Of a stretch of 24,087 nt of DNA, positions 1 through 21,638 are shown in pieces (position 1 is the stretch's first letter; each line of letters begins with the position of its first letter). Source of the stretch: a virus; IMG/VR virus record IMGVR_UViG_3300036832_001153, positions 1 through 24,087 of that record; one strand, 5' to 3'. The position numbers and the translations under genes were made by a program. The notes beneath the pieces are model-generated. The model did no database searches and was not told the DNA's origin. It worked only from the letters and a program-made list of their open reading frames with translations.

Positions 1-153
1 GTGTCCAAGGACCATTGGGCAAAAAAACGGAGCGCATTGGGGGCGGGCGGCATCGGCATTGGAGTGGGTAGGCATTTCATTGAGCATTGCGACGAGTGAG
101 TGTGCGTGTCATTGCCTCCCCCCTGGCGCGGCATTGGGGGTGTGTGCGCATAC

Positions 154-396
154 GGGGCTGACCGGCTTGGCTCCCTGGTGTGTGGGTGGCCAGCGGTGCC
201 GGGGCTGACCGGCTTGACTCCCGGTGTGCGTGCCCACGAGCGCCCCCTGTGTGCCCTCGTGTGCTCACCAGCCGGGGCTGACCGGCTTGTGTCCCTCAAC
301 CGTGCTGACCGGCTTGAGCGGCTGCGTGCGTTGCTCTGCGTGCACTGGAGAACGGGGCTGACCGGGTTGACGCCCTCAACCGTGCTGACCGGCTTG
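154..396 (+). repeat. Six direct copies of GGGGCTGACCGGCTTG
   Basis: Copies start at 154, 201, 274, 301, 354 and 381. Those at 154, 201 and 274 are identical; 354 has GGGTTG instead of GGCTTG; 301 and 381 begin CGTG instead of GGGG. The spacings (47, 73, 27, 53, 27) are not all multiples of three, so the copies fall in two reading frames and conservation is at DNA level, not protein level. The pair 274/301 is repeated as 354/381, an 80-bp offset. Further copies lie at 5527 and, inverted, at 11921. The role is unknown; a phage-protein binding site or stoperator-like element is a guess. Confidence 0.85.
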
Positions 397-420
397 ACCC
401 GGGTGGTACAGGCGTATCGT
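394..420 (+). promoter_or_regulatory. Candidate promoter for a leaderless HNH/terminase transcript
   Basis: TTGACC (394-399) and TATCGT (415-420) resemble -35 and TANNNT -10 boxes, with a short 15-base spacer. The -10 ends eight bases before the GTG at 429, and no Shine-Dalgarno sequence is visible, which fits a leaderless mRNA as is common in actinobacteria. The -35 overlaps the end of the last leader repeat (381-396), so a protein bound to the repeat could control it. Confidence 0.4.
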
Positions 421-428
421 GGCGTGGT

Positions 429-716
429 GTGAGAACCGGGCCATCGCCGTACAGCCGCCGCTACCGGGCTGAGCGGGCCCGGCTGCTCGCCGATCACCCG
501 CTCTGCCACTTGCGGCTCGTCTGCGACGGCGCCACCGCGAACAGCGCCGACCATGACCCACCTCTTGCGCTGCACCGCCACCAACCCGGGTCCGGGTGTT
601 GTCACCTCTTGCCGGCTTGCCTGCCCTGCCAGAAGGTGCAGGGCCGGGACATCGCTGCACTCGTGCGTGCCGGTATCACCACACCGCCACTCCCGGCGCC
701 GTCGAGGGCATGGTGA
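429..716 (+). CDS. HNH endonuclease next to the terminase
   Basis: The 95-residue protein has the zinc-knuckle and HNH layout of small phage endonucleases encoded next to terminase: Cys26 and Cys32, then A-D-H (His42) followed by D-P-P-L, then the L-P-A-C-L-P-C block with Cys64 and Cys67. Family members are thought to nick or cut DNA during packaging at cos-type ends, together with terminase and portal. The middle Asn usually seen in N-L-x-P-A-C is His59 here, and the Asn/His after the second Cys is Gln68, so activity is less certain than for a textbook member. The start is GTG, probably leaderless, eight bases after a TANNNT box. It overlaps the next gene by seven bases. Confidence 0.75.
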   Translation: MRTGPSPYSRRYRAERARLLADHPLCHLRLVCDGATANSADHDPPLALHRHQPGSGCCHLLPACLPCQKVQGRDIAALVRAGITTPPLPAPSRAW

Positions 717-913
717 CCAAACTGGGCATACCCCGGCGCTTGGGTCAACAGCTCTGTCAGGCATGGGGCTTGAACCCCGAACTCGTCGAGTCCATCGCCA
801 TCACCATCACCGCCGACAATCTGCCCAAAGTGGCGGTCGTCATGCTGGCTGATGAGCGCGTCGAGCGGGTCCTGCGGCGCTATGAGCTGATCGAGGACAC
901 CACCCGTGAGTGA
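710..913 (+). CDS. Small conserved phage protein, function unknown
   Basis: This 67-residue protein (ATG at 710, inside the end of the HNH gene; stop overlapping the next gene) starts M-V-T-K-L-G-I-P and has a central I-A-I-T-I-T-A-D beta-like stretch followed by an L-A-D-E-R-V-E-R helix. Short proteins of this shape, with an alternating hydrophobic strand after 'leg/ipr' N-termini, occur in other actinophages in the terminase neighbourhood; I know no function for them. Overlaps on both sides imply translational coupling to HNH and small terminase, so a role in packaging is a contextual guess. A longer frame opens upstream but would overlap nearly half of the HNH gene. Confidence 0.65.
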   Translation: MVTKLGIPRRLGQQLCQAWGLNPELVESIAITITADNLPKVAVVMLADERVERVLRRYELIEDTTRE

Positions 914-1445
914 TTGGCCAGAAGCCCACGACTTCGACTTGGCTGAGGCCCAACCGTGGGATCGCCAGCGCGACGAACCAACGAATCAGTACGCCGCCTT
1001 CCGCATCTACCGGGACTTGCCCCCATACCAGCGCACGCTGGGCGCGGTCAGCCAACAGATCGACGTGAACGAGTCCACGACCCGGCGTTGGGCTGAGCAG
1101 TGGTCCTGGCGCCTACGGGTGGAGGAATGGGACGACGCGTGCCACCGCATCGAGGACGGCGAGCGACTCGAAGCCATCCGTTCGATGCACTCCGCACACC
1201 GCCGGGCTGGACGCGCCATCTTCTCCAAGGCGATTCAGGCCATGACGCTGTTACGGCCCGAGGAGATGCCGCCGAGCGTGATCGCCCGCTTGCTCGATCT
1301 CGGCGCCAAACTCGAGCGCTCCACCCTCGTCGTGTCGGTGGAGGAGCTGCAAGGCGTCGAGGAGTACGTCGACACCGAGGACCCGTGGGAGCGCATTGCC
1401 GCCGAACTCGACCCGCACAACAGCGCCGCCGAACTCCCTGAATAG
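906..1445 (+). CDS. terS: Terminase small subunit (DNA-recognition), probable
   Basis: The 179-residue product has a helix-turn-helix at about residues 46-70 (T-L-G-A-V-S-Q-Q-I-D-V-N-E-S-T-T-R-R-W), followed by the Trp-rich W-S-W-R-L-R-V-E-E-W-D. The same arrangement is seen in actinophage small terminase-like proteins that bind the packaging site and load the large subunit. A helical oligomerisation region and an acidic C-terminus follow. The start is GTG, with GAGGA at 893-897 eight bases upstream; it overlaps the preceding gene and is itself overlapped by the large terminase. The call rests on HTH layout and position; sequence identity in this family is low. Confidence 0.7.
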   Translation: MSDWPEAHDFDLAEAQPWDRQRDEPTNQYAAFRIYRDLPPYQRTLGAVSQQIDVNESTTRRWAEQWSWRLRVEEWDDACHRIEDGERLEAIRSMHSAHRRAGRAIFSKAIQAMTLLRPEEMPPSVIARLLDLGAKLERSTLVVSVEELQGVEEYVDTEDPWERIAAELDPHNSAAELPE

Positions 1446-2862
1446 CCAGCCCCGCTGGGGAACGCCCCGGCAGCTTGACCGGCCAACGCGGGGAGGACTC
1501 GACCGACAAGTCGCGCAGCTGATCGGCTGGCGGTTCTTTCCCTGGCAGTCTCACGTCGCCGATGTCGGCGGCGAGTACGACCCGCTTACCAAGATTCCCT
1601 GTTACCGAACGGTGGGCGTGGCGGTGTCGCGCCAGAACGGCAAGACCACGCTCGTCTGTTCACGAATCGCCCGCCAACTCATTCCGCCCCGGCAAACGGT
1701 GGCGTACACGGCCCAGGACCGCGGGCTTGCCCGCACCAAGTGGGACGAACACGTCGAGCTGTTGATGAGCACGCCGTTTGCCGAACGCGTCGCTCGGGTA
1801 GACCGCACCAACCATCGCGAGATGCTGGTGATGGAGAACGGCTCGCGCTACATGCCGGTGACCCCGACCGGCAAGAAGGCCGGGCGCTCATTGAGCATCG
1901 ACTTGGCCGTGGTGGACGAGGCGCACGCGCACGAGGGCATGGGCGTGATCTCGGCCATCCAACCGGCGATGTCGGCCCGCCCCCACGCGCAGATATGGCT
2001 GCTCTCCAACGCCGGGAACTCGCGCTCGACGTTGTGGCGCCACTACACCGACATCGGGCGCATCGAGTCGGACAACCCGGCGTCGACAATGGCCTGGTTC
2101 GAGTACGCCGGGGCGCCCGATGCCGACGTGTTCGACCGCCAAAGTTGGGGCGAGGCCAACCCCAGTCTCGGGCTGACCGGGGGCGTGCTCGAAACGGCAC
2201 TGAGCGACGGGGCCCTGACGATGGAGCGCGACGTGTTCATGCGCGAGCACCTGAACGTGTGGATGGACTCGGCGGCTATCGCCGGGATCGACGCGCTGAC
2301 GTGGGCCGCCTGTCGTCGTGACGATGTCACGCCGGGCGCTCAGGTCGCCTTCGGGCTCGACTTCACCCCCGAACGCGATCGCGGCGCCTTGGTCGTCTGC
2401 GGCGAGGTGACCACCGACAGCGGCGAAGTCCTGACCCCGGTGGAGCTGATCGAATCCGGCTCGGACCTCGAGCGCCTCATCAGCCGCGCCGCCGAAGTGG
2501 CGAACGCCTGGGACGGGCTCATCACCATCGACCGGGGCTCACCGGCTTCATCGGCCATTCCGGCCCTGGAGCGTCTCACCCAGCGCGACGACGGACTCAG
2601 CCACCGGGTCCGGTTGATTCCGCTGACCGAGCTGGTGCGGGCGTGTGGGGACTTCCACGACGCGGCCATTGACGCCCGCATCTCACACCGGGGCGACTAC
2701 CGACTGACCGATGCCGTCACGAGCGCCACCAAGCGCCAAGTGGGCGACGCGTGGTGTTGGCAACGGCGCGGGCACGCTGACATCTCACCGCTCGTCGCGG
2801 CGACGTTGGCGCGCTGGGGTGTGGTCGCGGCGCCGGAGCCGTTGGTGCCCGCCGTGTACTGA
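1396..2862 (+). CDS. terL: Terminase large subunit (packaging ATPase/nuclease)
   Basis: This is the motor ATPase that pumps DNA into the prohead through the portal and cuts the concatemer. Visible motifs: Walker A S-R-Q-N-G-K-T at residues 78-84, Walker B A-V-V-D-E-A-H at 171-177, coupling motif L-L-S-N-A-G-N at 202-208, and an RNase H-like nuclease domain with acidic residues at Asp322 (F-G-L-D-F-T), Asp379 (T-I-D-R-G) and Asp462 (H-A-D-I-S-P-L). The length of 488 is normal for the family. The start is uncertain: TTG at 1396 gives a 50-base overlap with terS, whereas an in-frame CTG at 1438 gives an overlap of eight; no ATG or GTG precedes the conserved region. It is followed by an inverted repeat at 2866-2879. 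Confidence 0.93.
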   Translation: MPPNSTRTTAPPNSLNSQPRWGTPRQLDRPTRGGLDRQVAQLIGWRFFPWQSHVADVGGEYDPLTKIPCYRTVGVAVSRQNGKTTLVCSRIARQLIPPRQTVAYTAQDRGLARTKWDEHVELLMSTPFAERVARVDRTNHREMLVMENGSRYMPVTPTGKKAGRSLSIDLAVVDEAHAHEGMGVISAIQPAMSARPHAQIWLLSNAGNSRSTLWRHYTDIGRIESDNPASTMAWFEYAGAPDADVFDRQSWGEANPSLGLTGGVLETALSDGALTMERDVFMREHLNVWMDSAAIAGIDALTWAACRRDDVTPGAQVAFGLDFTPERDRGALVVCGEVTTDSGEVLTPVELIESGSDLERLISRAAEVANAWDGLITIDRGSPASSAIPALERLTQRDDGLSHRVRLIPLTELVRACGDFHDAAIDARISHRGDYRLTDAVTSATKRQVGDAWCWQRRGHADISPLVAATLARWGVVAAPEPLVPAVY

Positions 2863-2905
2863 CGTGATAGTCGTCTATCTCTGGTGTGCTCGAGACGGTT
2901 AGCCT
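2863..2905 (+). promoter_or_regulatory. GATAG-N4-CTATC inverted repeat with a -10-like box before the portal gene
   Basis: GATAGTCGTCTATC at 2866-2879 is a perfect 5-bp inverted repeat with a 4-base loop, immediately after the terL stop. TAGCCT at 2900-2905 fits a TANNNT -10 box, nine bases before the portal ATG, with no Shine-Dalgarno sequence; this suggests a leaderless portal transcript. No good -35 is visible, so the inverted repeat may bind an activator or repressor. The same element recurs at 17751 (inverted) and, imperfectly, at 5451. Confidence 0.45.
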
Positions 2906-2914
2906 GGGACCCCG

Positions 2915-4222
2915 ATGGCGTCCTACTTGACTGACTCGGGCTTGATGGTGACCGACCGACGCCACACTCGGAGCAACGACGACCCCCGCAGTTGGCCCCC
3001 CAACGACAACGGCCCCGGCGTGAACGACCCGCCGAGCACCGTCGGCCCGACCAGTAGCGAGGGCTTCGGCAACGATCACGTCATGTACCCCGCCGACACC
3101 GGGCCCCCGGCGACGACCGACATCATCCGCACGCCGCCGGTCATGCCCTGGTCCGGTTGGCCCGTCGAGTGGCAGACCCCGCTTTGGGGCCAAGCAGTCG
3201 GGCTCGGCGGCATTATGAACCGGGTATCGACGGTGTTCGGCGCCATCGACCTGAACTCGTCGCTGCTCTCGACCATGCCGCCGTACCGGATGATCGGCGA
3301 CACCGTCGTCCCGGCGTTGCCCTGGATGCTCAACCCCCAACCCGAGGTCTACACCGGCTGGACTGAGGCGATGAAACAGGTCGTCATGTCGTACTTCAAC
3401 GGCGAGGCGTTCTTGTGGGCCACCAACCGTTACCCGGACAACTCCGTGCGCAACTGGGTCATGCTCGATCCCCGGTGGGTCGATGTCGAGATGATGGGCC
3501 AGATTCGCCGCTACTTCATGCGTGACGTGGACATCACCGAGGACGTGCTGCACCTGCGTTACACGAGCTGGCCCGGCGACCCGCACGGGCACGGCCCGCT
3601 CGAAGCGCTGGCGCTCAACCTGTTCGGCGTCGCCGCATTGGAGCGCTATCAGTCCAACTTGGCCACCCGGGGCGGCATCCCGTGGGGTGCGCTCACGGCG
3701 CCGGGCAATCTCAACCCGACTCAGGCGGACCAACTCCGTGATCGTTTCGTCTCGGCCCGGCTCTCGTCGATGGGCGCGCCGGCGGTTCTGTCCGGCGGCG
3801 TGACGCTCACGCCGTTCTCCATTTCGCCCAAGGACATGGCGCTGCTCGAACTGCGCCAGTACGACGAGTCCCGGATCGCCGTGTTGCTCTGCGTGCCGCC
3901 GATGCTGTTGGGCCTACCCAGCGGCGACAACTCGATGACGTACCGCAACGCCGAAGGCATCTACGACTTCCACTGGCGGGCCTATCTGCGGCCCAAGGCG
4001 GCGACGATCATGGAGGCCGTTTCCGGCTGGGCCCTCGGACCTGGGCAACGCCTCGAAGTCAACCGCGACGAGTACGTGCGCCCGGCGTTTGCCGATCGCG
4101 TGGTCGGCTACAACACCCTGTTCAACATCTTCGACCCGGTGACCGGCGAACGCGCCATCTCCATCGCCGAGATTCGCGCCGCCGAGCGCCTGTCCGAAGA
4201 TGTCCAACTGGGGGCCCGGTGA
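2915..4222 (+). CDS. HK97-family portal protein
   Basis: The 435-residue protein is the dodecameric ring at the capsid vertex through which DNA enters and to which the connector and tail attach. The central part matches the HK97/SPP1-type portal layout: W-V-M-L-D-P-R-W-V-D-V-E (about 182-193), H-L-R-Y-T-S-W-P-G-D (213-222), P-L-E-A-L-A-L-N (about 228-235), then the Y-D-E-S-R-I-A-V-L-L-C-V-P-P-M-L-L-G-L (about 313-331) stretch typical of portal stem and wing, and D-F-H-W-R-A-Y-L-R-P near the C-terminus. About 70 N-terminal residues are polar, Pro-rich and probably disordered. It begins directly downstream of the 2866 inverted repeat. Its stop overlaps the next gene. Confidence 0.92.
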   Translation: MASYLTDSGLMVTDRRHTRSNDDPRSWPPNDNGPGVNDPPSTVGPTSSEGFGNDHVMYPADTGPPATTDIIRTPPVMPWSGWPVEWQTPLWGQAVGLGGIMNRVSTVFGAIDLNSSLLSTMPPYRMIGDTVVPALPWMLNPQPEVYTGWTEAMKQVVMSYFNGEAFLWATNRYPDNSVRNWVMLDPRWVDVEMMGQIRRYFMRDVDITEDVLHLRYTSWPGDPHGHGPLEALALNLFGVAALERYQSNLATRGGIPWGALTAPGNLNPTQADQLRDRFVSARLSSMGAPAVLSGGVTLTPFSISPKDMALLELRQYDESRIAVLLCVPPMLLGLPSGDNSMTYRNAEGIYDFHWRAYLRPKAATIMEAVSGWALGPGQRLEVNRDEYVRPAFADRVVGYNTLFNIFDPVTGERAISIAEIRAAERLSEDVQLGAR

Positions 4223-4515
4223 GCGACGAGGACGAGGTCGCCACGCTGCTGGCACAGGTCGTCATGTTCGACAGCGATGCTCCTCCTCCACCAGAGGAAC
4301 TGGCGCTGAACGACGCAGTCCTCGGCCACCTGTCGGACCGTCCAGCCCGGTCAACCCCGGCATCGGACCCCGACGTGGTCGAGGCCCTGCGGCTGAGCTA
4401 CGCCATCGCCGCCGCACTCGCCGAGTTGGGCGCACCCACCCCCGACTACCCGGCGCCGGTCGCCAACGCCGTCCGCATCCTCACCGAAGCCCTACTCGGA
4501 GGCGAACCAACATGA
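4219..4515 (+). CDS. Small acidic protein between portal and protease, unknown
   Basis: The 98-residue product starts at a GTG overlapping the portal stop (GTGA) and ends overlapping the protease start (ATGA), so it is a coupled gene of the head operon. It is acidic and Pro-rich in the first half (a P-P-P-P-E-E-L run), then helical, with A-I-A-A-A-L-A-E-L-G-A-P and a P-V-A-N-A-V-R-I-L-T-E-A-L-L stretch. I do not recognise a family. Its position between portal and protease would suit a small head-assembly or chaperone role, which is inference only. Confidence 0.65.
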   Translation: MSDEDEVATLLAQVVMFDSDAPPPPEELALNDAVLGHLSDRPARSTPASDPDVVEALRLSYAIAAALAELGAPTPDYPAPVANAVRILTEALLGGEPT

Positions 4516-5273
4516 GCACCCAGCCCACCTTCATCCGAGCGTTCCCGGTGGCCGTCGAGCGCACCGGCCCGCACCAACTCACCGGGCGTCTCGTGCCCTA
4601 CGGGCAGGTGGCTTACGTGGCCGACCAACTGCCCAACGGCGAGTTCGAGGTGTACCAGGAGGGCTTCCGCTCCGGCGCCTTCAAGCGACAGGTGTCCAGT
4701 CCCGAGCCCGGGGTGGTGCGCAAGATCGGGCTCATCCACCGCCACGACGGCGGGCTCGGGTTCTTGGGGCCATTCGTGGCGCTACGCGAGGCGGCGGACG
4801 GGCTCTACGGCGACGTGCGGATTCTGCCCACCAAGGCCGACGACGTGGAAGCGTTGCTCGAAGAAGGCGTCAACGAACTCTCGGTCGAGTTCCGGCTGCA
4901 CAAGTCCGACCACACCCAGATCGACGAGAGCGGCGTGCGCTGGCGCACCGGGGTCCATCTCGACCAGGTGGCGCTCGAGCCCCAAGGCGCCTACTCCAAC
5001 GCGCAAGTGCTGGCGTACCGCAGCGAGATCGACGACGAGCAGAAGGCGCAGGCGCAAGCCGAAGCCGAGCGCAAAGCCGCCGAGGAGGAAGCCGCCGCCA
5101 AAGCCGCCGAAGAACAGGCGAGCAAGGAACGCGCCGAGAAGGAAGCCCAAGAGGCCGTCGAGCGCAAGCGGCGGTGGGAGGAACTCGCCGCCCGGGTGGA
5201 CGACGAACGGGCCAAACAAGCGCAATACCTACGCGACTACGGGGTCACGCAGCTCCCGGGGCACCCACGATGA
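4512..5273 (+). CDS. Prohead maturation protease with coiled-coil scaffold-like tail
   Basis: The first 165 residues match the HK97 gp4-type (U35) serine protease that cleaves scaffold and capsid N-termini in the prohead: G-R-L-V-P-Y-G at 25-31, the catalytic His region L-I-H-R-H-D-G at 74-80, the Ser region E-L-S-V-E-F at 122-127 (Ser124), and the third acidic residue probably Glu156 (V-A-L-E-P-Q-G-A-Y). From about residue 172 to the end (253) the chain is Ala/Glu/Lys-rich and almost purely coiled coil, ending Y-L-R-D-Y-G-V-T. Such tails in fused protease-scaffold proteins hold the capsid subunits during assembly and are then digested. ATG at 4512 was chosen because it overlaps the preceding stop and begins the conserved domain; the frame stays open further upstream. 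Confidence 0.9.
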   Translation: MSTQPTFIRAFPVAVERTGPHQLTGRLVPYGQVAYVADQLPNGEFEVYQEGFRSGAFKRQVSSPEPGVVRKIGLIHRHDGGLGFLGPFVALREAADGLYGDVRILPTKADDVEALLEEGVNELSVEFRLHKSDHTQIDESGVRWRTGVHLDQVALEPQGAYSNAQVLAYRSEIDDEQKAQAQAEAERKAAEEEAAAKAAEEQASKERAEKEAQEAVERKRRWEELAARVDDERAKQAQYLRDYGVTQLPGHPR

Positions 5274-5452
5274 CCCGGCTCCGCGGTTATACGCCGGTGC
5301 TGGCGCTCCTCGCCGGGCTGGCGGCGGTGGTGCTCGGACTCATTGCGATCTTCCAAGCGCAGCCCGCCAGCGACACGATTGATCTGCTCGGATGGGCCGC
5401 GTTCTCCGGCGGCGTCGGCGTGGCGCTGTTGTGTCTCCCGCCGCTGCCCTGA
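5270..5452 (+). CDS. Small two-helix membrane protein in the head operon
   Basis: The 60-residue product begins at an ATG overlapping the protease stop (ATGA) and has two clear membrane segments, about residues 8-28 (P-V-L-A-L-L-A-G-L-A-A-V-V-L-G-L) and 38-58 (L-L-G-W-A-A-F-S-G-G-V-G-V-A-L-L-C-L), separated by a short loop with Q-A-Q-P-A-S-D. The N-terminus is positively charged (M-T-R-L-R). Size and topology resemble small holins or superinfection-exclusion proteins, but the location between protease and capsid is unusual for a lysis gene. I do not recognise a family. A GATAG-type inverted repeat overlaps its stop codon. Confidence 0.65.
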   Translation: MTRLRGYTPVLALLAGLAAVVLGLIAIFQAQPASDTIDLLGWAAFSGGVGVALLCLPPLP

Positions 5453-5464
5453 TAGCCGTCTAGC
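5451..5464 (+). repeat. Imperfect copy of the GATAG-N4-CTATC inverted repeat
   Basis: GATAGCCGTCTAGC matches the element at 2866-2879 at 12 of 14 positions. As with the other copies it sits on a stop codon at an operon boundary, here the end of the small membrane protein gene. Confidence 0.5.
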
Positions 5465-5526
5465 ACGCCGCCGATCCCCCGCCTCGGGATACAGCGACAG
5501 GGGACCAGCGGCACCAACAAGCTATC

Positions 5527-5542
5527 GGGGCTGACCGGCTTG
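5527..5542 (+). repeat. Exact copy of GGGGCTGACCGGCTTG upstream of the capsid gene
   Basis: This copy is identical to those at 154, 201 and 274. It lies in the 285-base gap between the head-assembly genes and the capsid gene, 11 bases upstream of a candidate -35 box. Position and identity suggest a shared regulatory or packaging function. Confidence 0.8.
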
Positions 5543-5553
5543 AACCGGGGTCA

Positions 5554-5584
5554 TTGACGAGACACGCCCGGGTGTGCCTACTCT
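5554..5584 (+). promoter_or_regulatory. Candidate capsid-operon promoter
   Basis: TTGACG at 5554-5559 and TACTCT at 5579-5584 (TANNNT form) are separated by 19 bases, slightly long. Transcription would begin near 5591, giving a leader of roughly 145 bases to the preferred capsid start at 5738. It lies directly downstream of the 16-bp repeat copy. The gap 5453-5737 holds nothing else I can name. Confidence 0.35.
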
Positions 5585-5737
5585 GGTTGCCCTGAGCAGT
5601 CGGTGACAGACTCGCCGCCTTTTGACAGACCGAGCGATTGGTGCCCGCCCGGTGTCGTGAGGCCCGACCCGCCCGATGCGAACCCCACCATCATTCGGGT
5701 TCTGGCATCGCTAGGCCCACGTCACCGGGAGGCACCG

Positions 5738-7012
5738 ATGCCCCACGCACTTGTCGAGCAGTACATCAATGAGCGCGACCAGCTGGTCAACACCGTGTCC
5801 GTGCTCAAGAACGCCACGCTGGACCGGGGTGGTGACCCGAGCAGCCAGGACCTCGAACTGATGGGCAAGTCCTACGAGCGCATCGACAAGCTCGACGAAC
5901 TCATCAAGATTCTCGGCGAGGACAAGACGATGGACGCCGACACCCGGGACAAGTTGCTTGCCCCGACGCCGAGCACGTCGCTGGGCGGCATCAAGTACCG
6001 CAGCGGCGGCGAGATGGTCTGGGACTGTCTGCACGCCAACTATGGCTCGCAGCACGACCACGAGGACCAGGAGGCGAAGCGCCGCTGGGACACCGTAATG
6101 AAGCGCGCCGCTGAGCACATGGGCACCAGCGCCGCCGAAACCACGCCGGTCGCCGGTGGCATCGGAGGGCTCTACGTGGTCCCCGTCGTCGGGCCGGTCA
6201 TCGACCTCTACCCCAGCGGTCAGCCGTTTCTCACGGCCATCGGCAAGCAACCGGCGCCAAACGCGTTGAACTTCACGCGTCCGCGCCTGGTCGACGACAA
6301 CTTCACCACCGGGGCAGCCGTGCAAACGCTGGAGAAGGCCGAGCTGGTCAGCAAGAAGTTCGATGTCAAGACCGACGCGCTCACGCTCGACACGGTCGGC
6401 GGTTACCTGAACATCAGCCAGCAACTCATGTCGCTGCAATCGAGCGGGTGGAACATCATCGTCGGTCAGCTGCAAAAGCGCGTGGCGTATCAGGGTGAAG
6501 CCGGGGCGCTCACCGAACTGGCCAAGACCACCGCCCACATTCCGCTGGCTGCCGGGGCCGATTCAGCCACAGTCATCGCCGCGCTGTTCGACGCCGCCGC
6601 CCTGGTGTACGAGAACACCAAGGAACTGCCGACGTGGATCGCCTACGGGCCGCAGGGCTGGGCCATGCTGGGCTCGCTCTGTGACGCCGCCGGGCGCCCG
6701 CTGTTCCCGTTCCTCGGAGCAACCAACGCCGCCGGGTCTGCCGCGCTGAGCGACTTCAACCTGGGGCCGTTGGGCTTGCAGCAGATCGTGACGCCAGGCA
6801 TCGCGACCACCGACCTGTTCATGGGCAACACGGTGGCGATGGAGGCGTACTCGTACTCGTTCCCGATCCTCGAAGCCATCGAGCCCGCCTTGATGGGTCG
6901 CCAGGTCGCCGTCGCAGAGGCGCTCTGCTTCTACCGGCCCACGACCAAGGAAGCCGGGCCCTCCGACACGCCGCCCGCCGAAGCCAACGGCGCGGTCCGC
7001 ATCGGCGTCTGA
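5738..7012 (+). CDS. HK97-fold major capsid protein
   Basis: The 424-residue protein forms the icosahedral shell. The first 75 residues are a charged helical coiled coil (L-V-E-Q-Y-I-N-E-R-D-Q-L, then Y-E-R-I-D-K-L-D-E-L-I-K-I-L), equivalent to the HK97 delta domain that the protease removes. The rest shows HK97-fold features: G-G-L-Y-V-V-P-V-V-G-P-V-I-D-L-Y, N-F-T-R-P-R-L-V-D, then A-L-T-L-D-T-V-G-G-Y-L-N-I-S-Q-Q-L (E-loop and P-domain area), and a C-terminal V-A-M-E-A-Y-S-Y-S-F-P-I-L region. ATG at 5738 has GGGAGG at 5728-5733, so I prefer it. A GTG at 5603 would add 45 Pro-rich residues without a ribosome site. A strong hairpin follows. Confidence 0.93.
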   Translation: MPHALVEQYINERDQLVNTVSVLKNATLDRGGDPSSQDLELMGKSYERIDKLDELIKILGEDKTMDADTRDKLLAPTPSTSLGGIKYRSGGEMVWDCLHANYGSQHDHEDQEAKRRWDTVMKRAAEHMGTSAAETTPVAGGIGGLYVVPVVGPVIDLYPSGQPFLTAIGKQPAPNALNFTRPRLVDDNFTTGAAVQTLEKAELVSKKFDVKTDALTLDTVGGYLNISQQLMSLQSSGWNIIVGQLQKRVAYQGEAGALTELAKTTAHIPLAAGADSATVIAALFDAAALVYENTKELPTWIAYGPQGWAMLGSLCDAAGRPLFPFLGATNAAGSAALSDFNLGPLGLQQIVTPGIATTDLFMGNTVAMEAYSYSFPILEAIEPALMGRQVAVAEALCFYRPTTKEAGPSDTPPAEANGAVRIGV

Positions 7013-7020
7013 GAAGTAGT

Positions 7021-7070
7021 CGGGGGCGGTGGCTCTCTCGGTGCATGGCAGCTCCGGCCCACCGCCCCCG
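7021..7070 (+). terminator. 12-bp perfect GC-rich inverted repeat after the capsid gene
   Basis: CGGGGGCGGTGG at 7021-7032 pairs perfectly with CCACCGCCCCCG at 7059-7070 across a 26-base loop, beginning eight bases after the capsid stop. There is no T-run, so it is not a standard intrinsic terminator. More likely it is a partial terminator or an RNA-stabilising structure that sets a higher capsid mRNA level relative to downstream genes. The inverted repeat is certain; the function is inferred. Confidence 0.55.
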
Positions 7071-7101
7071 GCCCGCTCGATCACCACAGGAGGACTGAAC
7101 G

Positions 7102-7548
7102 ATGAGCATGACCCCGACCACCGAGACGACAACAAGGCGAGCCGCCTTGTGGGCTGCCAGCTACTACGACGCCAGCATCCCGCCTGACTTGCTGGGACCC
7201 CCGGAGGCACCCGTCCTCGACGCGCTCGACCCAGACACCATCACCGTCGGGCCCCCGCCCACGCCGCTGGTCATCACCGGCAGCAACTTCAACGCCAACT
7301 CGAAGGTCTGGGCCGACGAGGAAGCCCAGTTGACCACGTTCGTCAGCGATACCGAGCTGACCTACAACGCCGAGGCCGACCGGGAGGGAACGCAGACCAT
7401 CACCGTGCGGCACGGCGGGCTCAGCTCCGATGCCATCGAACTCACCGTCGCCGCCGATGAGGGGCGGAGCGTCGAGTCACCGGCGCCGGAGCCCGACCCC
7501 GACGACGAGCCCGACCCCGAGGACGAGCCCGGCGACGAGGAGGACTGA
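7102..7548 (+). CDS. Ig-like (IPT/TIG) domain head or decoration protein
   Basis: The 148-residue protein has a strong AGGAGG at 7088-7093. After about 40 flexible residues there is one IPT/TIG immunoglobulin-like domain, about 52-116: P-L-V-I-T-G-S-N-F-N-A-N-S-K-V-W, then T-T-F-V-S-D-T-E-L-T-Y, then G-T-Q-T-I-T-V-R-H-G-G-L-S-S. The end is an acidic tail of repeated D/E/P (residues 128-148). Ig-like domains are common add-ons on phage capsid and tail surfaces, where they may help adsorb to host surfaces. Its position directly after the capsid gene suggests a capsid decoration protein. Which structure carries it cannot be read from sequence. Confidence 0.75.
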   Translation: MSMTPTTETTTRRAALWAASYYDASIPPDLLGPPEAPVLDALDPDTITVGPPPTPLVITGSNFNANSKVWADEEAQLTTFVSDTELTYNAEADREGTQTITVRHGGLSSDAIELTVAADEGRSVESPAPEPDPDDEPDPEDEPGDEED

Positions 7549-7549
7549 G

Positions 7550-7876
7550 TTGGGTTCTTACGCCACCGTCGACGAGCTGGCCGAGGCGCTGGAGATTCGG
7601 GTCACCGATCAGAATCACCAACTGCTCGACGACTGCCTCGACGCCGCCGCCACCGAGATCAACCACTTCCTCGACGGCAACCCGCTGACTGACCCGCCGC
7701 CGGGCATCATCATCCGCACCAACGTCAACCGGGCCGTCGAGTGGTACAAGGCTCCCGCGACGTACAACGGCGGGGTCGGCACGACCGAAGTCGGCACACT
7801 CACCGCCCCGCAGTCGGGCTTCGAGCGCCACTCTGCCGCCCTGTTGCCGCTCAAGGCGAGCTGGGGCATCGCATGA
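7550..7876 (+). CDS. Head-tail connector (adaptor) protein
   Basis: The 108-residue protein begins S-Y-A-T-V-D-E-L-A-E-A-L and continues with D-D-C-L-D-A-A-A-T-E-I-N-H-F-L-D-G, then a helix N-R-A-V-E-W-Y-K. This all-helical pattern is that of gp6/gp15-type adaptors that bind under the portal ring. The start is TTG at 7550, two bases after the preceding stop, preceded by GAGGAGGA in the acidic tail codons of the upstream gene; no other in-frame start lies near the conserved N-terminus. The stop overlaps the next ATG (ATGA). Confidence 0.8.
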   Translation: MGSYATVDELAEALEIRVTDQNHQLLDDCLDAAATEINHFLDGNPLTDPPPGIIIRTNVNRAVEWYKAPATYNGGVGTTEVGTLTAPQSGFERHSAALLPLKASWGIA

Positions 7877-8250
7877 ACCTGTTGGAAGTGCGCGACAAGT
7901 TGGGAGCGGTGCTCGCACCCATCGACGACGACGACCCGAACGTGCTCACGTCCCTGGTGGACGCCATCGAACCCCCGGCCCTCATGTTGGGCTGGAACGA
8001 ACCGTGGCTCGAGCCCGAGGGCATGTGCTTCAACACCGGGCATGTGGTCGTGACCTGCGTGGCGGCGCGCCTCTCCCCCGGCGAAGGCATCGCCAAGCTC
8101 GAAGAACTGGTCGCTTACACGTTGCGGCGCCTACGCACCGACACCGAGAGCTGGGCGCTGACCAACGTGAGCGGGCCCCGGGTGTTCCTGATCGCCAAGA
8201 CCAACTACCTCGCGTGCCGCATCGCGTTGCGCGTGAGCATCTCGGAGTAG
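7873..8250 (+). CDS. Tail terminator / head-tail completion protein, probable
   Basis: The 125-residue protein starts at an ATG overlapping the connector stop. An N-terminal helix (L-L-E-V-R-D-K-L-G-A-V-L) is followed by strands with P-P-A-L-M-L-G-W, G-H-V-V-V-T-C-V-A-A-R and R-I-A-L-R-V-S-I. The alternation of one helix and a beta sheet, the size and the position between adaptor and neck/tail tube genes match gpU-like tail terminators, which cap the tail tube and join it to the head. Identity is inferred from layout; a head stopper role is the alternative. Confidence 0.6.
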   Translation: MNLLEVRDKLGAVLAPIDDDDPNVLTSLVDAIEPPALMLGWNEPWLEPEGMCFNTGHVVVTCVAARLSPGEGIAKLEELVAYTLRRLRTDTESWALTNVSGPRVFLIAKTNYLACRIALRVSISE

Positions 8251-8254
8251 CGCG

Positions 8255-8668
8255 ATGCCCGACGGAACCGGCGTCGAGATGGTGGGGCTGGCTGAGGCCA
8301 ACGCCGCCATCAAGCAGTGGGCGAACAGCCAGCTCCCGCTCGACTTCATCATCGGCACCCGCTCGTTCGCCGACTCGGTGGCCACTGAGGTAGCAGCAAG
8401 AGTCCCGGTGCTGACCGGCGCGCTCGCCGGGTCAGTGGTGGGCGTCAGCGACGACAAGAGCAGCGGCGTCGGCATGGGCAACGACGACGACGTGCCCTAC
8501 GCCAGATGGATCGAGTTCGGCGGCAGCCGCGGGCGGGACTTGGTGCCGCAAGGGCGCTACGTCTATCCAACGATTCAGAGCGCCATGTCCCAGCTCGCCG
8601 ACGCCGCCGGGACCACGGCCAAGACCTCCATCGCCAAGTACCCGTGGCCGAGCCCGAGCCCAGCATGA
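8255..8668 (+). CDS. HK97 gp10-like neck/tail completion protein
   Basis: The 137-residue product has the hallmarks of this family: A-A-R-V-P-V-L-T-G-A-L-A-G-S-V (about 48-62), then a beta hairpin leading to V-P-Y-A-R-W-I-E-F-G-G-S-R-G (about 80-93) and G-R-Y-V-Y-P-T-I-Q-S-A. The 'P-x-x-T-G-x-L' and 'Y-A-x-x-x-E-F-G' motifs are typical of gp10-like proteins that complete the neck between connector and tail. GGAG at 8244-8247 precedes the ATG by seven bases. Confidence 0.82.
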   Translation: MPDGTGVEMVGLAEANAAIKQWANSQLPLDFIIGTRSFADSVATEVAARVPVLTGALAGSVVGVSDDKSSGVGMGNDDDVPYARWIEFGGSRGRDLVPQGRYVYPTIQSAMSQLADAAGTTAKTSIAKYPWPSPSPA

Positions 8669-8706
8669 GAGACATCTATCAAACAGAGAAGGGAACCCAC
8701 CCATGA
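8665..8706 (+). CDS. 13-codon micro-ORF bridging neck and tail tube genes
   Basis: An ATG overlapping the neck stop (ATGA at 8665-8668) opens a frame of 13 codons, M-R-D-I-Y-Q-T-E-K-G-T-H-P, whose TGA overlaps the tail tube ATG (ATGA at 8703-8706). The tail tube ribosome site (AGAAGGGA) lies inside it. It may serve only to keep ribosomes moving between the genes; it may also be chance. Confidence 0.25.
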   Translation: MRDIYQTEKGTHP

Positions 8707-9197
8707 CCGCACCTGTCGTATCGGCTGGCAAGCCGTTCACACTCACCGGGGCCTACGTCGAGCTGTCCGGCACCGACTTCACCTGTCTCACCAACCACCT
8801 CGTCATCAAGCCGGACGTGACCAAGGAAACGGCCAAGTCCATTTGCGGCTCGGTCGACTACGTGGGGCAGATCAAGTGGCTGTTCGGGCTGACCCTCTAC
8901 CAGTCGTTCGAGGATGCCACCGCCACCTACCAAGTGCTCGACGCGGCGGTCAAGGCCGGCGTTGCGGTGCCGTTCGTCGTGCGCCCGTACCCCGGCCCGG
9001 CGGGTCCGGCGAACCCAGAGTTCACCGGCATGGTCAACCCTGAGCCGTTCACCATCTTCGACTCCGACGCCGGGGCGCTCGTCACCACCGACATCGAGTG
9101 GACCTGTCTCGAGGAACCAACGGTCACCAACACCGTTGGCGGCGGCACGCAGAGCGCCGCGCAGAAGCCTGCCGAGAAAGTCGACGCCAACAGCTGA
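8703..9197 (+). CDS. Major tail protein (tail tube)
   Basis: The 164-residue protein is called from its position after the neck genes and before the frameshifted chaperone, and from its fold-like sequence: a strand-rich N-terminus (F-T-L-T-G-A-Y-V-E-L-S-G-T-D-F), then a long helix-strand section Y-V-G-Q-I-K-W-L-F-G-L-T-L-Y-Q-S-F-E, then V-P-F-V-V-R-P-Y-P-G-P and a C-terminal D-I-E-W-T-C-L-E strand. W/F-x-x-x-L and 'Y-Q..E' patterns occur in actinophage tail tube proteins. GAGAAGGGA at 8686-8694 is the ribosome site. The stop codon lies inside a degenerate copy of the 16-bp repeat. Confidence 0.85.
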   Translation: MTAPVVSAGKPFTLTGAYVELSGTDFTCLTNHLVIKPDVTKETAKSICGSVDYVGQIKWLFGLTLYQSFEDATATYQVLDAAVKAGVAVPFVVRPYPGPAGPANPEFTGMVNPEPFTIFDSDAGALVTTDIEWTCLEEPTVTNTVGGGTQSAAQKPAEKVDANS

Positions 9198-9213
9198 CCG
9201 GCTTAACTCCCGG
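9192..9213 (+). repeat. Degenerate copy of the 16-bp repeat across the tail tube stop codon
   Basis: AGCTGACCGGCTTAACTCCC resembles the 201 copy including its flank (CTGACCGGCTTGACTCCC at 204-221). The TGA in CTGACC is the tail tube stop (9195-9197). The following gap to 9251 otherwise carries only the ribosome site of the next gene (AGGAGG). Confidence 0.5.
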
Positions 9214-9251
9214 GTCCCCACCGACCACCCGACCAAACAGGAGGACCACCG

Positions 9252-9578
9252 ATGACGATTGACCCCAGCCTTCTCCCGCCCGACGAAGATGCCGGGCTCC
9301 CGCTTGACGAGCCCGAGATCGTCACCGTTGGGGCGCGTGGGTTCCGCGTCCGAGCCAACGACATCCGAGCGCTCAAGAAGGCCACCGGGCTCACGCTGGG
9401 CGACCTGCTCAACGGCGACGATATGGCCGATCAGACGCAAGCGATGGCGTTCCTGGCCCTGCGCCGCAAACACCCCGACGAGGACCCGGGGGAGCTTTGG
9501 GAGAGGGCCGGGGACATTGATGTCGAGTTTGACGCCGAGCCACCGACGCCGGACCCTACCGCCGCGCCGTCCTCCTGA
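9252..9578 (+). CDS. Tail assembly chaperone, upstream part (G-type)
   Basis: The 108-residue product occupies the lambda G position between tail tube and tape measure. It has a basic helical core (F-R-V-R-A-N-D-I-R-A-L-K-K-A-T-G-L-T-L-G-D-L-L) and an acidic Pro-rich end (D-A-E-P-P-T-P-D-P-T-A-A-P). These chaperones coat the tape measure while the tube polymerises. CAGGAGGA at 9238-9245 is the ribosome site. An overlapping -1 frame (9533-9715) encodes the expected T-type extension. Confidence 0.85.
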   Translation: MTIDPSLLPPDEDAGLPLDEPEIVTVGARGFRVRANDIRALKKATGLTLGDLLNGDDMADQTQAMAFLALRRKHPDEDPGELWERAGDIDVEFDAEPPTPDPTAAPSS

Positions 9579-9715
9579 ATGTGGCGAGCATGTGCCGCTA
9601 CTGGCGCATGACGCCCGACGAGGTCGACGCGCTCGACGACGATATGTACCACGCCATGCGCGAGTTCATGGACCTCGAACGCGCTGAGATAGCCCGGCAG
9701 AACAGGCGCCGCTGA
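9533..9715 (+). CDS. Tail assembly chaperone extension in the -1 frame (T-type)
   Basis: The -1 frame relative to the G-type gene is open from 9533, after a TGA at 9530-9532, to the stop at 9713-9715. It encodes R-R-A-V-L-L-N-V-A-S-M-C-R-Y-W-R-M-T-P-D-E-V-D-A-L-D-D-D followed by an acidic/basic helix. That is the conserved T-domain pattern of actinophages, and it begins before the G stop, so fusion by a programmed -1 frameshift between 9533 and 9575 is likely. I see no classical X-XXY-YYZ heptamer there. Separate initiation at GTG 9581, two bases after the G stop, is possible but would lose the R-R-A-V-L-L-N-V part. Confidence 0.75.
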   Translation, partial: RRATDAGPYRRAVLLNVASMCRYWRMTPDEVDALDDDMYHAMREFMDLERAEIARQNRRR

Positions 9716-12033
9716 TGCCACCCGGCGGTCCATCGGTCCTCGTCCGCTTCCTGTCCGACATGACCGGGCTGAAGAAGGGCATTGACGACACCGCCACGCA
9801 GAGCGAGTCGGCGGGCACCCGGATTCACGGCGCCTTCTCCACCGTCATCGGGCAGTTGAACCAGACCGGCATCCTCGGGCCTTTCGGCGCCTCGCTCGAA
9901 ACGGCCAATCAGGGCCTCGACAAGATGTCGACAAAGACCGGCAGCATGGGCACCAAACTGATGGGGCTCGGCGGCGTCGCGTTGGGCGCCGGGCTGGCGC
10001 TACAAGCGGCGGGCTCCAAGGAACAAGCGGCGACCCAACAACTCTCGGCCAGCATCGACGCCACCGGGCACTCGTATGACACCTACACCACCAAGATCGA
10101 CGCCGCCGTCAAGCACCAAGAGACGTTCGGCAACACCGCCGCCGAAACCAAAGGCGCCCTGCAAAAGCTCACACAGGCCACCGGCGACCCCACCAAAGCG
10201 CTGGAGATGCTCGGTACTGCCTCCGACCTCGCCGCGGCCAAGCACGAGAGTCTGGGCCAGGCGGCGGGACAGATGGGCAAGATATACAACGGCGCCACCA
10301 GGACCCTCAAAGAGTTCGGGGTCAGTGCCGAGAAGGCGTCCACGTCGCAGAACCTCCTCAAAGGCGCCCAGAAGGCGGCGACGAGCGCGGACGAGGGCGT
10401 GCAAAAGGCGCTCAAGGCGCAGACCGAGCTGCACGAGAAGCTGGCCGGGAAAACCAAGCTCACCGCCGGTGAGATCGTCTCGCTCCAAAAGGCCAACGAC
10501 AACGTCGCTACCGCGTCGGACAAGGCGAAAGCGGCCCACGAGCGGCTCGACACCGCACAGAAGAACGTCAAGACATCGGCGCAAGTCGGCACGGACATGA
10601 TCGGCAAGCTGGGCGACAAGCTCAAGGGTCAAGCGTCAGCCGGGGCCGACACCTTCGGCGGGAAGATCAAGAGCATGAGGGCCAAAGTCGAGGACGCCGT
10701 CTCGACCTTCGGGCAGAAGTACGGCCCGGCCATCACCATCGCCGGAGCGGCGACGACTGGGTTCGGCTCCGCGCTCGAAGTCGGCAAGGCAGCGATGGCG
10801 GCGTACAAGGCCATGACTGCCGAGGGCGCGGTGCAAATGGCCATCTTCAACGCGGTGATGGACGCCAACGTCTTTATCCTCATCGCCATCGCCGTCGCCG
10901 CGCTCGTCGCCGGGTTCATCCTGCTTTACAAGCACTCACAACTGGTGCGCGAGATCGTGGCCGACATCGGCAAGTTTGGCAAGGACGCGTTCAAGGGGCT
11001 CGAAGCGGCGTTCCACGCCGTCGTCGACGCCGCCAAAAAGGTGTTCAACTGGATCAAAGAGAACTGGCCTCTGCTCGCTGAGATATTGCTGGCGTTAACC
11101 AGCCCCCTCGGCTTGGTGATTGCCGTGTTCATCAGGTTTCACGATCAGATCATCGGCTTCTTCACCAAACTGCCGGGCGAAATACTCGCCGCGCTCGGCG
11201 CGCTCGGGGGCCTGTTGACCCAAGTGGGGACAGACATCATCAACGGGCTCTGGCAAGGCATCCAAACGGCCTGGAACGCCGGGGTGGGCTGGATCACCGG
11301 GCTCGGACAATCCATCCTCGGCGCCGTCGGCGCTCTGGGGAACCTGTTGCTCAATGTGGGCGAGGACGTGATCCACGGCTTGCTCGCCGGGCTGCAATGG
11401 GTCTGGAACACCGAAGTCAACGGCTGGCTCAACATCGGTCAGAAGATCATCGGCGCCATCGGCAATCTCGGGGGCCTGCTGCTCGAAGTTGGCAAGTCGG
11501 TCATCCACGGGCTCCTCGACGGACTCAAGTGGGTGTGGGACCACGAGGTCACCGGCTGGCTCAACATCGGGCAGAAGATCAAGGGCGCCATCGGGACGTT
11601 GGGCGCCCTGCTGTTCGACGTGGGCAAGTCGATCATCAACGGTCTGTGGGACGGCATGAAGAATATGTGGAACAACGTGAGCGGCTGGGTCGGCGGACTG
11701 GGCTCCAAGATCGCCGGGCTCAAGGGCCCGCTCGAGTACGACCGCAAGCTCCTCGTTCCCGCCGGGCACGCCATCATGGCCGGGCTCGACGAGGGCCTGC
11801 GCGCTGGCATGAGGACAGTGCAACAAACGCTGGGCGACTTCACCGCCAGCATCGGCGCCCCGGTCATCGTCGGCGGTGGCGGACAAGTGATAGGCAACTA
11901 TCAGCAACGCGCCGGCGGCTCAACCCGGTCAGCCCCGGCCATCGTGATCGAGCGCGCCGAGTTTCGCGAGACGCTCGACGTTGACTCGTTCATGCGCCGG
12001 GCTGCCTGGGCAATCACGACCGAGTCGCTATGA
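9715..12033 (+). CDS. Tape measure protein
   Basis: The 772-residue protein is the longest in the window. It sets tail length and is delivered into the host envelope with DNA. Features: Gly/Ala-rich hydrophobic stretch at about 82-100; long Ala/Lys helical region 110-320; strong membrane segment at about 386-406 (V-F-I-L-I-A-I-A-V-A-A-L-V-A-G-F); second hydrophobic block near 455-475; four 44-residue tandem repeats at 490-665; and a C-terminal L-V-P-A-G-H-A-I-M-A-G-L-D-E-G-L motif common in actinobacterial phage tape measures. The ATG overlaps the chaperone stop by one base. I see no lysozyme or peptidase domain. Its last part carries an inverted copy of the 16-bp repeat. Confidence 0.93.
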   Translation: MPPGGPSVLVRFLSDMTGLKKGIDDTATQSESAGTRIHGAFSTVIGQLNQTGILGPFGASLETANQGLDKMSTKTGSMGTKLMGLGGVALGAGLALQAAGSKEQAATQQLSASIDATGHSYDTYTTKIDAAVKHQETFGNTAAETKGALQKLTQATGDPTKALEMLGTASDLAAAKHESLGQAAGQMGKIYNGATRTLKEFGVSAEKASTSQNLLKGAQKAATSADEGVQKALKAQTELHEKLAGKTKLTAGEIVSLQKANDNVATASDKAKAAHERLDTAQKNVKTSAQVGTDMIGKLGDKLKGQASAGADTFGGKIKSMRAKVEDAVSTFGQKYGPAITIAGAATTGFGSALEVGKAAMAAYKAMTAEGAVQMAIFNAVMDANVFILIAIAVAALVAGFILLYKHSQLVREIVADIGKFGKDAFKGLEAAFHAVVDAAKKVFNWIKENWPLLAEILLALTSPLGLVIAVFIRFHDQIIGFFTKLPGEILAALGALGGLLTQVGTDIINGLWQGIQTAWNAGVGWITGLGQSILGAVGALGNLLLNVGEDVIHGLLAGLQWVWNTEVNGWLNIGQKIIGAIGNLGGLLLEVGKSVIHGLLDGLKWVWDHEVTGWLNIGQKIKGAIGTLGALLFDVGKSIINGLWDGMKNMWNNVSGWVGGLGSKIAGLKGPLEYDRKLLVPAGHAIMAGLDEGLRAGMRTVQQTLGDFTASIGAPVIVGGGGQVIGNYQQRAGGSTRSAPAIVIERAEFRETLDVDSFMRRAAWAITTESL
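11182..11709 (+). repeat. Four tandem 132-bp (44-residue) repeats in the tape measure gene
   Basis: Units start at 11182, 11314, 11446 and 11578. Each encodes I-x-G-A-x-G-x-L-G-x-L-L, then V-G-x-x-x-I-x-G-L-x-x-G, and ends near W-L-N-I-G-Q-K. Units 2 and 3 are the most alike. The pattern is amphipathic with Gly at regular positions, as in tape measure sections thought to associate with membrane. Unit gain or loss would change tail length in steps. Confidence 0.85.
11921..11936 (-). repeat. Inverted exact copy of the leader repeat variant
   Basis: CAACCCGGTCAGCCCC is the exact reverse complement of the copy at 354-369 (16 of 16). It lies in a Gly/Ser-rich, probably flexible part of the tape measure (G-G-S-T-R-S-A-P), where codon choice is relatively free. 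Confidence 0.7.
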
Positions 12034-17515: not shown

Positions 17516-17755
17516 ATGAGCCACCGCCCGATCGGGCCCGATCATGTGGCGTTCGTGCTCGCCATCGCCCTGGCCCTGTCGGCGTCGCTCATCCTGATCG
17601 GCACCATCGTCCAGATATTGCACGGCACGCCCGAAGTCAGGCTCTCCGAGAACGCCACGCAGATACTCATCGCGTCCGTATCGGGGCTGACCGGCGTGCT
17701 CGGCGGCTACATGGGCTATCGGCTCGGCAAACGCGACGACGATGAGGACCGATAG
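17516..17755 (+). CDS. Two-helix membrane protein, holin candidate
   Basis: The 79-residue product has two membrane segments, about 11-35 (V-A-F-V-L-A-I-A-L-A-L-S-A-S-L-I-L-I-G) and 48-70 (I-L-I-A-S-V-S-G-L-T-G-V-L-G-G-Y-M-G-Y), and a charged tail K-R-D-D-D-E-D-R. Size, topology and charged C-terminus fit a small holin that opens the membrane for the endolysin, and it is the last gene of the tail/lysis operon. It is separated from the lysin by three tail-type genes, and a second two-helix protein exists at 5270, so the assignment is not exclusive. The ATG directly abuts the preceding stop. Confidence 0.7.
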   Translation: MSHRPIGPDHVAFVLAIALALSASLILIGTIVQILHGTPEVRLSENATQILIASVSGLTGVLGGYMGYRLGKRDDDEDR

Positions 17756-20751: not shown

Positions 20752-20846
20752 CAGGTCAGAGGCCCCTTTCATTCGCTTGGTCCCCGTCTCTGGCAGTCAA
20801 GTTGTCGTGGGTTCGAGTCCCATCGCCTCCACCAGGTCAGAGGCCC
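20752..20846 (+). repeat. 14-bp direct repeat flanking the attP core
   Basis: CAGGTCAGAGGCCC occurs at 20752-20765 and 20833-20846, 81 bases apart, both followed by a short T-rich stretch. The second copy begins at the CA of the tRNA CCA end. The pair brackets the core, so it could be a protein-binding arm or the trace of an earlier insertion or duplication. Confidence 0.7.
20791..20834 (+). other. attP core: 3' end of a tRNA gene, alanine-like
   Basis: T-stem GTGGG (20807-20811), loop TTCGAGT (20812-20818), CCCAT (20819-20823), acceptor strand CGCCTCC (20824-20830), discriminator A and CCA (20832-20834). No matching 5' half (acceptor strand, D-arm) lies upstream, so this is a partial tRNA: the part a phage carries to restore the host gene after integration. 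T at position 70 (G3-U70 pairing possible) and A73 are the alanine identity bases, so tRNA-Ala is the best guess. The exact core limits need the host sequence; similarity probably starts near 20805. Confidence 0.8.
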
Positions 20847-21272: not shown

Positions 21273-21638
21273 TTAGCTGGGTCCGCCGCCGCCCAGCCAT
21301 TCGTACAACTGGATCAGCGTCGCCTTTCGTGATGACGAGAGCCAGCGGTCCCGCCTGATTGCCGCCACGACATCGTTGGCCACCGTGTCGCTCCTCGTCG
21401 GCGCCGGGAGCCCGGCGGACTCGAGCATCTCAGCCAGGTCGGCGCCGAGCGCCTCGCACAAGCTGATGACCGTGTCACGCCCCGGATGGTGCCCCCGGGC
21501 CCCCGTCTCGATGGTGGCAATGTGACCGGCGCTGATCCCTGACGCCCGGGCCAGCTCAGCTTGGCTCAGCCCGGCTTCGAGCCGGTGTTCCTTGAGCAAG
21601 CGCCCAAAAGCGGTAGGTCCCGAATCAGGCATCGCCAC
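21273..21638 (-). CDS. Cro/CI-type (XRE) repressor, probable
   Basis: The 121-residue protein has a standard XRE helix-turn-helix: F-G-R-L-L-K-E-H-R-L-E-A-G-L-S-Q-A-E-L-A-R-A (about 11-32), S-G-I-S-A-G-H-I-A-T-I-E-T-G-A-R-G, and V-I-S-L-C-E-A-L-G-A-D. The C-terminal helix region R-K-A-T-L-I-Q-L-Y-E-W-L-G-G may dimerise. There is no LexA-like peptidase domain, so induction by RecA cleavage is unlikely. GTG at 21638 has AGGA six bases upstream; ATG at 21632 is the alternative. It is divergent from the excisionase-like gene, typical of a genetic switch. Confidence 0.82.
   Translation of the reverse strand: MAMPDSGPTAFGRLLKEHRLEAGLSQAELARASGISAGHIATIETGARGHHPGRDTVISLCEALGADLAEMLESAGLPAPTRSDTVANDVVAAIRRDRWLSSSRKATLIQLYEWLGGGGPS

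Follow-up and report, generated by a model that had tools for sequence, protein, structure and literature searches.

A dispersed 16-bp repeat in the packaging-operon leader of an uncultured temperate phage, shared with two more distant phages and possibly a protein-binding DNA site

The stretch analysed here, called the window, is the linear IMG/VR record IMGVR_UViG_3300036832_001153 over its 24,087 bases (65.9% G+C), a fragment of a temperate phage. Its genes encode an HNH protein, TerS (phrog_6299), TerL, portal, protease, capsid, major tail protein, tape measure (assigned by eye), amidase, integrase, an XRE-type repressor and a phrog_466 exonuclease. For the capsid gene, ATG 5738, behind GGGAGG, is the more likely start, since the alignment of one relative begins there. 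Near the integrase gene, positions 20808-20835 resemble the 3' end of a tRNA (GGTTCGAGTCCCATCGCCTCCACCA) and are likely to represent the attP core.

The leader directly preceding HNH-TerS-TerL (154-396) contains six copies of a 16-mer, GGGGCTGACCGGCTTG, and single copies follow at 5527, 9192 and 11921 in permissive spots, namely an intergenic gap, a stop codon and a variable tape-measure linker (Table 1). These nine copies, four of them exact and five variant, had been listed in an earlier note on this DNA and all hold up, including the one over the tail-tube stop and the minus-strand copy of the 354 variant. In the 16-mer register (9190-9205) the 9192 copy has four mismatches; it is judged genuine because 9193-9213 matches the copy at 204 through the right flank (GCTGACCGGCTT[A/G]ACTCCCGG). 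Positions 273-317 and 353-397 form a local 45-bp duplication (91% identical) that encloses four of the six leader copies, which are therefore not all independent. Start codons lie 33 bp beyond the copy at 381 (GTG 429) and 46 bp beyond that at 9190 (ATG 9252). The earlier note's view that selection acts on DNA is borne out: the leader copies fall in two reading frames (positions modulo 3 of 1, 0, 1, 1, 0 and 0), eight of the nine window copies are non-coding or lie across a stop codon, and in two other phages clusters of the motif precede the packaging operon, which also points to DNA rather than peptide. A coding repeat (a GLTGLT peptide) was rejected because the leader copies use two frames.

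Table 1. Copies of the repeat in the window and in the two further carriers
Phage	Feature	Position	Strand	Evidence
Window	Leader copy 1, exact GGGGCTGACCGGCTTG	154..169	+	25.3 bits, matrix from the other phages
Window	Leader copy 2, exact; flanks CCGGG...CCCGG are inverted arms	201..216	+	30.1 bits
Window	Leader copy 3, exact	274..289	+	24.2 bits
Window	Leader copy 4, variant CGTGCTGACCGGCTTG, two mismatches	301..316	+	17.6 bits
Window	Leader copy 5, variant GGGGCTGACCGGGTTG, one mismatch	354..369	+	29.3 bits
Window	Leader copy 6, variant CGTGCTGACCGGCTTG, two mismatches	381..396	+	20.4 bits
Window	Exact copy, gap before capsid gene, about 195 bp upstream of ATG 5738	5527..5542	+	28.2 bits
Window	Degenerate copy over stop codon (9195-9197) of tail-tube gene; core 9193-9206	9190..9213	+	Alignment with 204 copy
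Window	Copy of 354 variant; variable linker near end of tape measure gene	11921..11936	-	26.5 bits; linker alignment
G003 (IMGVR_3300036785_000212, 33 kb)	Copies in non-coding stretch after HNH	426-1417		
G003	Copies in leader ahead of ParB-like, ABC, TerS and TerL genes	7715-7973		
G005 (IMGVR_3300036791_000971, 39 kb)	Copies in leader matching that of G003	28426-28643		
G005	Copies beside HNH	34764, 34858		
G005	Copy 2 nt past stop of holin-like gene	3549		

An exact-match scan of IMG/VR gave two further multi-copy contigs, G003 and G005, in which 25 copies were counted, all non-coding or at gene ends. The repeat is thus real, mostly non-coding and shared with two phages at corresponding leader positions; in all three, copies concentrate around HNH and the terminase-operon leader, with a conserved core and diverging flanks. 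Individual copies turn over while the location stays: G003 and G005, although their terminases are 83% identical, differ in how many copies they have and in how these are ordered and oriented. Orientation is mixed in G003 (10:7), whereas eight of the nine window copies are alike. Several copies span or directly trail stop codons (window 9193, G003 426, G005 34858 and 3549). The TerS families differ, with phrog_6299 in the window and phrog_83 (Terminase_4) in G003, yet the motif is the same. The HNH proteins of the window and G003 have no detectable similarity, for which reason an HNH-specific site was rejected. Genes found in common between the window and both carriers are tail genes, an amidase and a phrog_466 exonuclease; no regulator was found among them, but as the window is a fragment a regulator could lie beyond its ends. 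Locus L014 (1670-1860 and 1987-2029), in the interval that separates HNH from the VWA/AAA operon of G003, has tandem CAGGGTCCAGGGTCCGA repeats followed by a strong terminator with a 19-bp stem and a T tract on the minus strand.

The recurrence is far above chance, as the earlier note had estimated. Allowing up to three mismatches to the 16-mer, the window holds 17 sites, whereas dinucleotide shuffles give an expectation of 0.71 and none of 100 reaches 17. A matrix trained on the 25 copies from G003 and G005 only, with no window copies, recovers eight of the nine window copies at 17.6-30.1 bits, the exception being the copy at 9193, whose left end is degenerate. At 14 bits or above, this matrix finds 13 window sites where the rate in 1.37 Mb of related-phage DNA predicts 0.21, some of the extra sites being look-alikes within conserved codons. 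Two of these were rejected as copies and are best read as chance, one at 2534 in TerL codons (DRGSPA..., conserved in six of six relatives) and one at 17683 in a holin-like SGLTGVLGG, the amino acids of which are conserved in relatives. Sites near 4343, 18193 and 18551 were left out of the copy count.

Taken over all three phages, the element reads (A)CGGG-GCTGACCGG-SYTGA-CCCG(T) by consensus and CACGGGAG-CCTGACCGGSTTGA-CTCCCGTG in a variant form; its core is an imperfect 9-bp direct repeat (GCTGACCGG / SYTGACYCG) within inverted CGGG...CCCG arms. Complementarity of the arms exceeds that of DNA drawn at random from the genome (P ≤ 0.005), yet it is no better than that of arms shuffled within the same phage (P = 0.50, 0.70 and 0.25). 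The dyad is therefore a feature of the consensus and not a covarying stem. Leader RNA from the window (z = +1.1) and G005 (z = 0.07) folds like its shuffles, whereas one G003 stretch folds well (z = -3.6) because of an inverted pair of copies there. A search of Rfam with the element gave zero matches.

The motif search in relatives that the earlier note had proposed gave a divided answer. The motif is absent from the six nearest terminase relatives of the window (TerL identity 73-78%), but two phages of this group that are less closely related carry it. Close relatives can thus have the same head and packaging genes and lack the motif. It is likewise absent from relatives with TerS 62-65% identical to that of the window, from TerL relatives of G003, from other amidase or exonuclease relatives within the stretches examined, and from about 90 other related loci. 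Four pattern scans of IMG/VR yielded zero additional multi-copy carriers, matches beyond the two being lone ones, and isolated phages and plasmids gave no convincing similarity. A host chromosomal repeat was rejected, the genome-collection scan having returned one chance match, in Exiguobacterium. Matches to a scan for pairs of cores were also set aside, since they were mostly arrays from unrelated phages that repeat every 9 bp and were picked up because the core itself has an internal 9-bp period.

Repeat arrays near HNH and terminase genes recur with different sequences in some lineages. Locus L006 has seven copies of TGGCTAATCA (508-602 and 757-772), starting right after HNH; the last lies within the TerS gene, in a part likely to encode a helix-turn-helix, in a pac-like arrangement. 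L024 (5600-6150 and 344-409) has many GGGCCCG-containing repeats in the non-coding gap between HNH and TerS, and three tandem GTCTCACCAGTGAGAC-like palindromes. No repeat array was seen near HNH/terminase in L002-L004. Two other repeats were observed among the loci: CATTGACATTC in L049 and L067 (IMGVR_3300036828_000346), a candidate phage-specific motif with seven dispersed copies in L049, and AACCCCTGTAG in L062 (9373-11743), where six of the seven copies form pairs 24 bp apart at intervals of about 450 bp.

A second, separate palindrome, TGATAGNNNNCTATCA, with the pattern TG[AC]TAGNNNNCTA[TG]CA, is dispersed through the window at 2865, 5450, 11888, 17750 and 23878, and more weakly at 8666. 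There are 13 copies in L003, and the pattern is repeated in L046, L048, L050, L094 and G005 (3370, 28667 and 36030). It sits at gene ends and in gaps, and its centres vary slightly between related phages. This palindrome is likely to comprise operator or stoperator sites of phage repressors, and it is a better stoperator candidate than the 16-bp repeat. The suggestion that the repeat is the target of the repressor encoded at 21273-21638 fares poorly by comparison, with no copy near that gene. The two elements are neighbours at 5527 and 5450, at 11921 and 11888, and at 28644 and 28667 in G005; the association is suggestive, but was noticed post hoc and both elements prefer gaps. In L016 (3309-3328), after the late genes of G005, two DnaA-box-like sequences (TTGTCCACA and TTATCCACG) adjoin a perfect stoperator-like palindrome.

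Dispersed intergenic motifs that are specific to particular phages form a documented class (PMC4351075, PMC7302621, PMC3203893), and the analogy that the earlier note had drawn to dispersed actinophage sites is apt. Cluster O mycobacteriophages contain dispersed, group-specific 17-bp palindromes (PMC4351075), and Microbacterium clusters EC, EG and EI dispersed group-specific motifs, in each case of function not established; in cluster EC an asymmetric 18-bp motif occurs 12 times, with some copies between the terminase and portal genes (PMC7302621). The present repeat resembles these in being short, specific to a phage group and present in about 5 to 35 copies, most of which are intergenic while some lie within genes. 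It differs in its sequence, in the dominance of one leader array and in having a 9-bp direct repeat in inverted arms. Moreover, it is common to phages with different head and packaging modules and not to the closest relatives, whereas conservation among close members is typical of the Cluster O, EC and EG-type motifs, as a trait and not as a strict definition. Stoperators of the Cluster A phages L5 and Bxb1 are repressor-bound 13-bp sites in 24-34 copies (PMC3029335), similarly asymmetric, dispersed and mostly intergenic, and resembled by the window copies in lying mostly in one orientation; here, in contrast, a leader array dominates, orientation is mixed in G003 and a separate palindrome looks more like a repressor site. 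Start-associated sequences of Clusters K and EF lie 3-7 bp before the start codons of non-structural genes (PMC3203893, PMC7302621). They share with the repeat a short conserved repeated word, GGG...CCC outer symmetry and restriction to phage groups, but the copies described here are tens to hundreds of bp away from start codons and occupy the structural half. The repeat is thus filed under the dispersed intergenic motifs of actinobacteriophages, a known broad kind.

The reading best supported, with a probability of roughly 0.45 and so held tentatively, is that a putative DNA-binding protein recognises the repeat as a phage-specific site on double-stranded DNA, perhaps in control of the late operon. 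It is favoured because the copies are mostly non-coding and frame-independent, the same sequence stands beside different protein modules and there is no RNA covariation. A phage or host protein would bind the element, with sites arrayed in the leader of the packaging and late operon and placed singly at a few later gene boundaries, and the bound protein might regulate late transcription, either by activation or by silencing in the prophage. Counting against this are the mixed orientation in G003, the lack of a regulator among the shared genes, the close relatives without the motif and the absence of promoter-like matches associated with the copies. The earlier idea that the terminal TTGA doubles as a -35 box finds no backing, as there is no promoter-like site in 1-5800 and no -10 hexamer at the right distance (16-18 bp).

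The main rival, though on balance unlikely, is that the element is a small palindromic repeat, REP- or MITE-like, which spreads selfishly or duplicates passively and has no regulatory role. Placement in non-coding DNA, gene ends and linkers, with several copies across or right after stop codons, would suit such an element, as would the rearranged arrays of G003 and G005, the local duplication in the window leader and the scattered carriers. Against this, no mobilising enzyme was recognised, and the copies concentrate at the HNH and terminase leader of three phages with the core kept while flanks diverge. A more elaborate form of the binding-site reading is doubtful: the motif and its putative binding protein may form an exchangeable late-operon control module, the same recognition sequence having been acquired by phages with different head and packaging genes. 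Its specificity would be swapped rapidly, since some relatives have other arrays at a similar place (TGGCTAATCA in L006, GGGCCCG in L024).

The R sites of lambda cosB are about 16 bp long, repeated and near the terminase genes. Comparable packaging sites near a cos end, bound by the small terminase or the HNH protein, would account for leader copies directly ahead of HNH-TerS-TerL and for the other arrays between HNH and TerS in L006 and L024. Nevertheless, two facts make a cos site specific to the terminase unlikely: the small terminases of the carriers are of different families, and copies (5527, 9192, 11921 and G005 3549) lie far from terminase genes. The HNH proteins likewise have no detectable similarity, and relatives with similar TerS do without the motif. 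Replication-origin iterons for a phage or host initiator are less probable still. Clustered direct copies in a long non-coding stretch, and further tandem repeats beside the G003 cluster, are what an origin might contain, but the spacing is irregular, the sequence G+C-rich, the orientation mixed and single copies dispersed, and no replication initiator gene adjoins the arrays. Least probable is an RNA element of the late leader, such as a nut/boxB-like antitermination hairpin or an attenuator. In its favour, the arms flank a conserved loop, most window copies point in the direction of late transcription and one stretch of G003 folds well. Against it, covariation between the arms is absent, the other two leaders fold like shuffles, G003 has copies in both orientations and Rfam holds no match.

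If the repeat is indeed a regulator's site, it would mark the late-operon control region across a group of uncultured phages, with the leader array as a ready-made probe with which to find the protein. Set side by side, carriers and non-carriers show the speed at which such a set of sites is gained and lost among otherwise similar phages.
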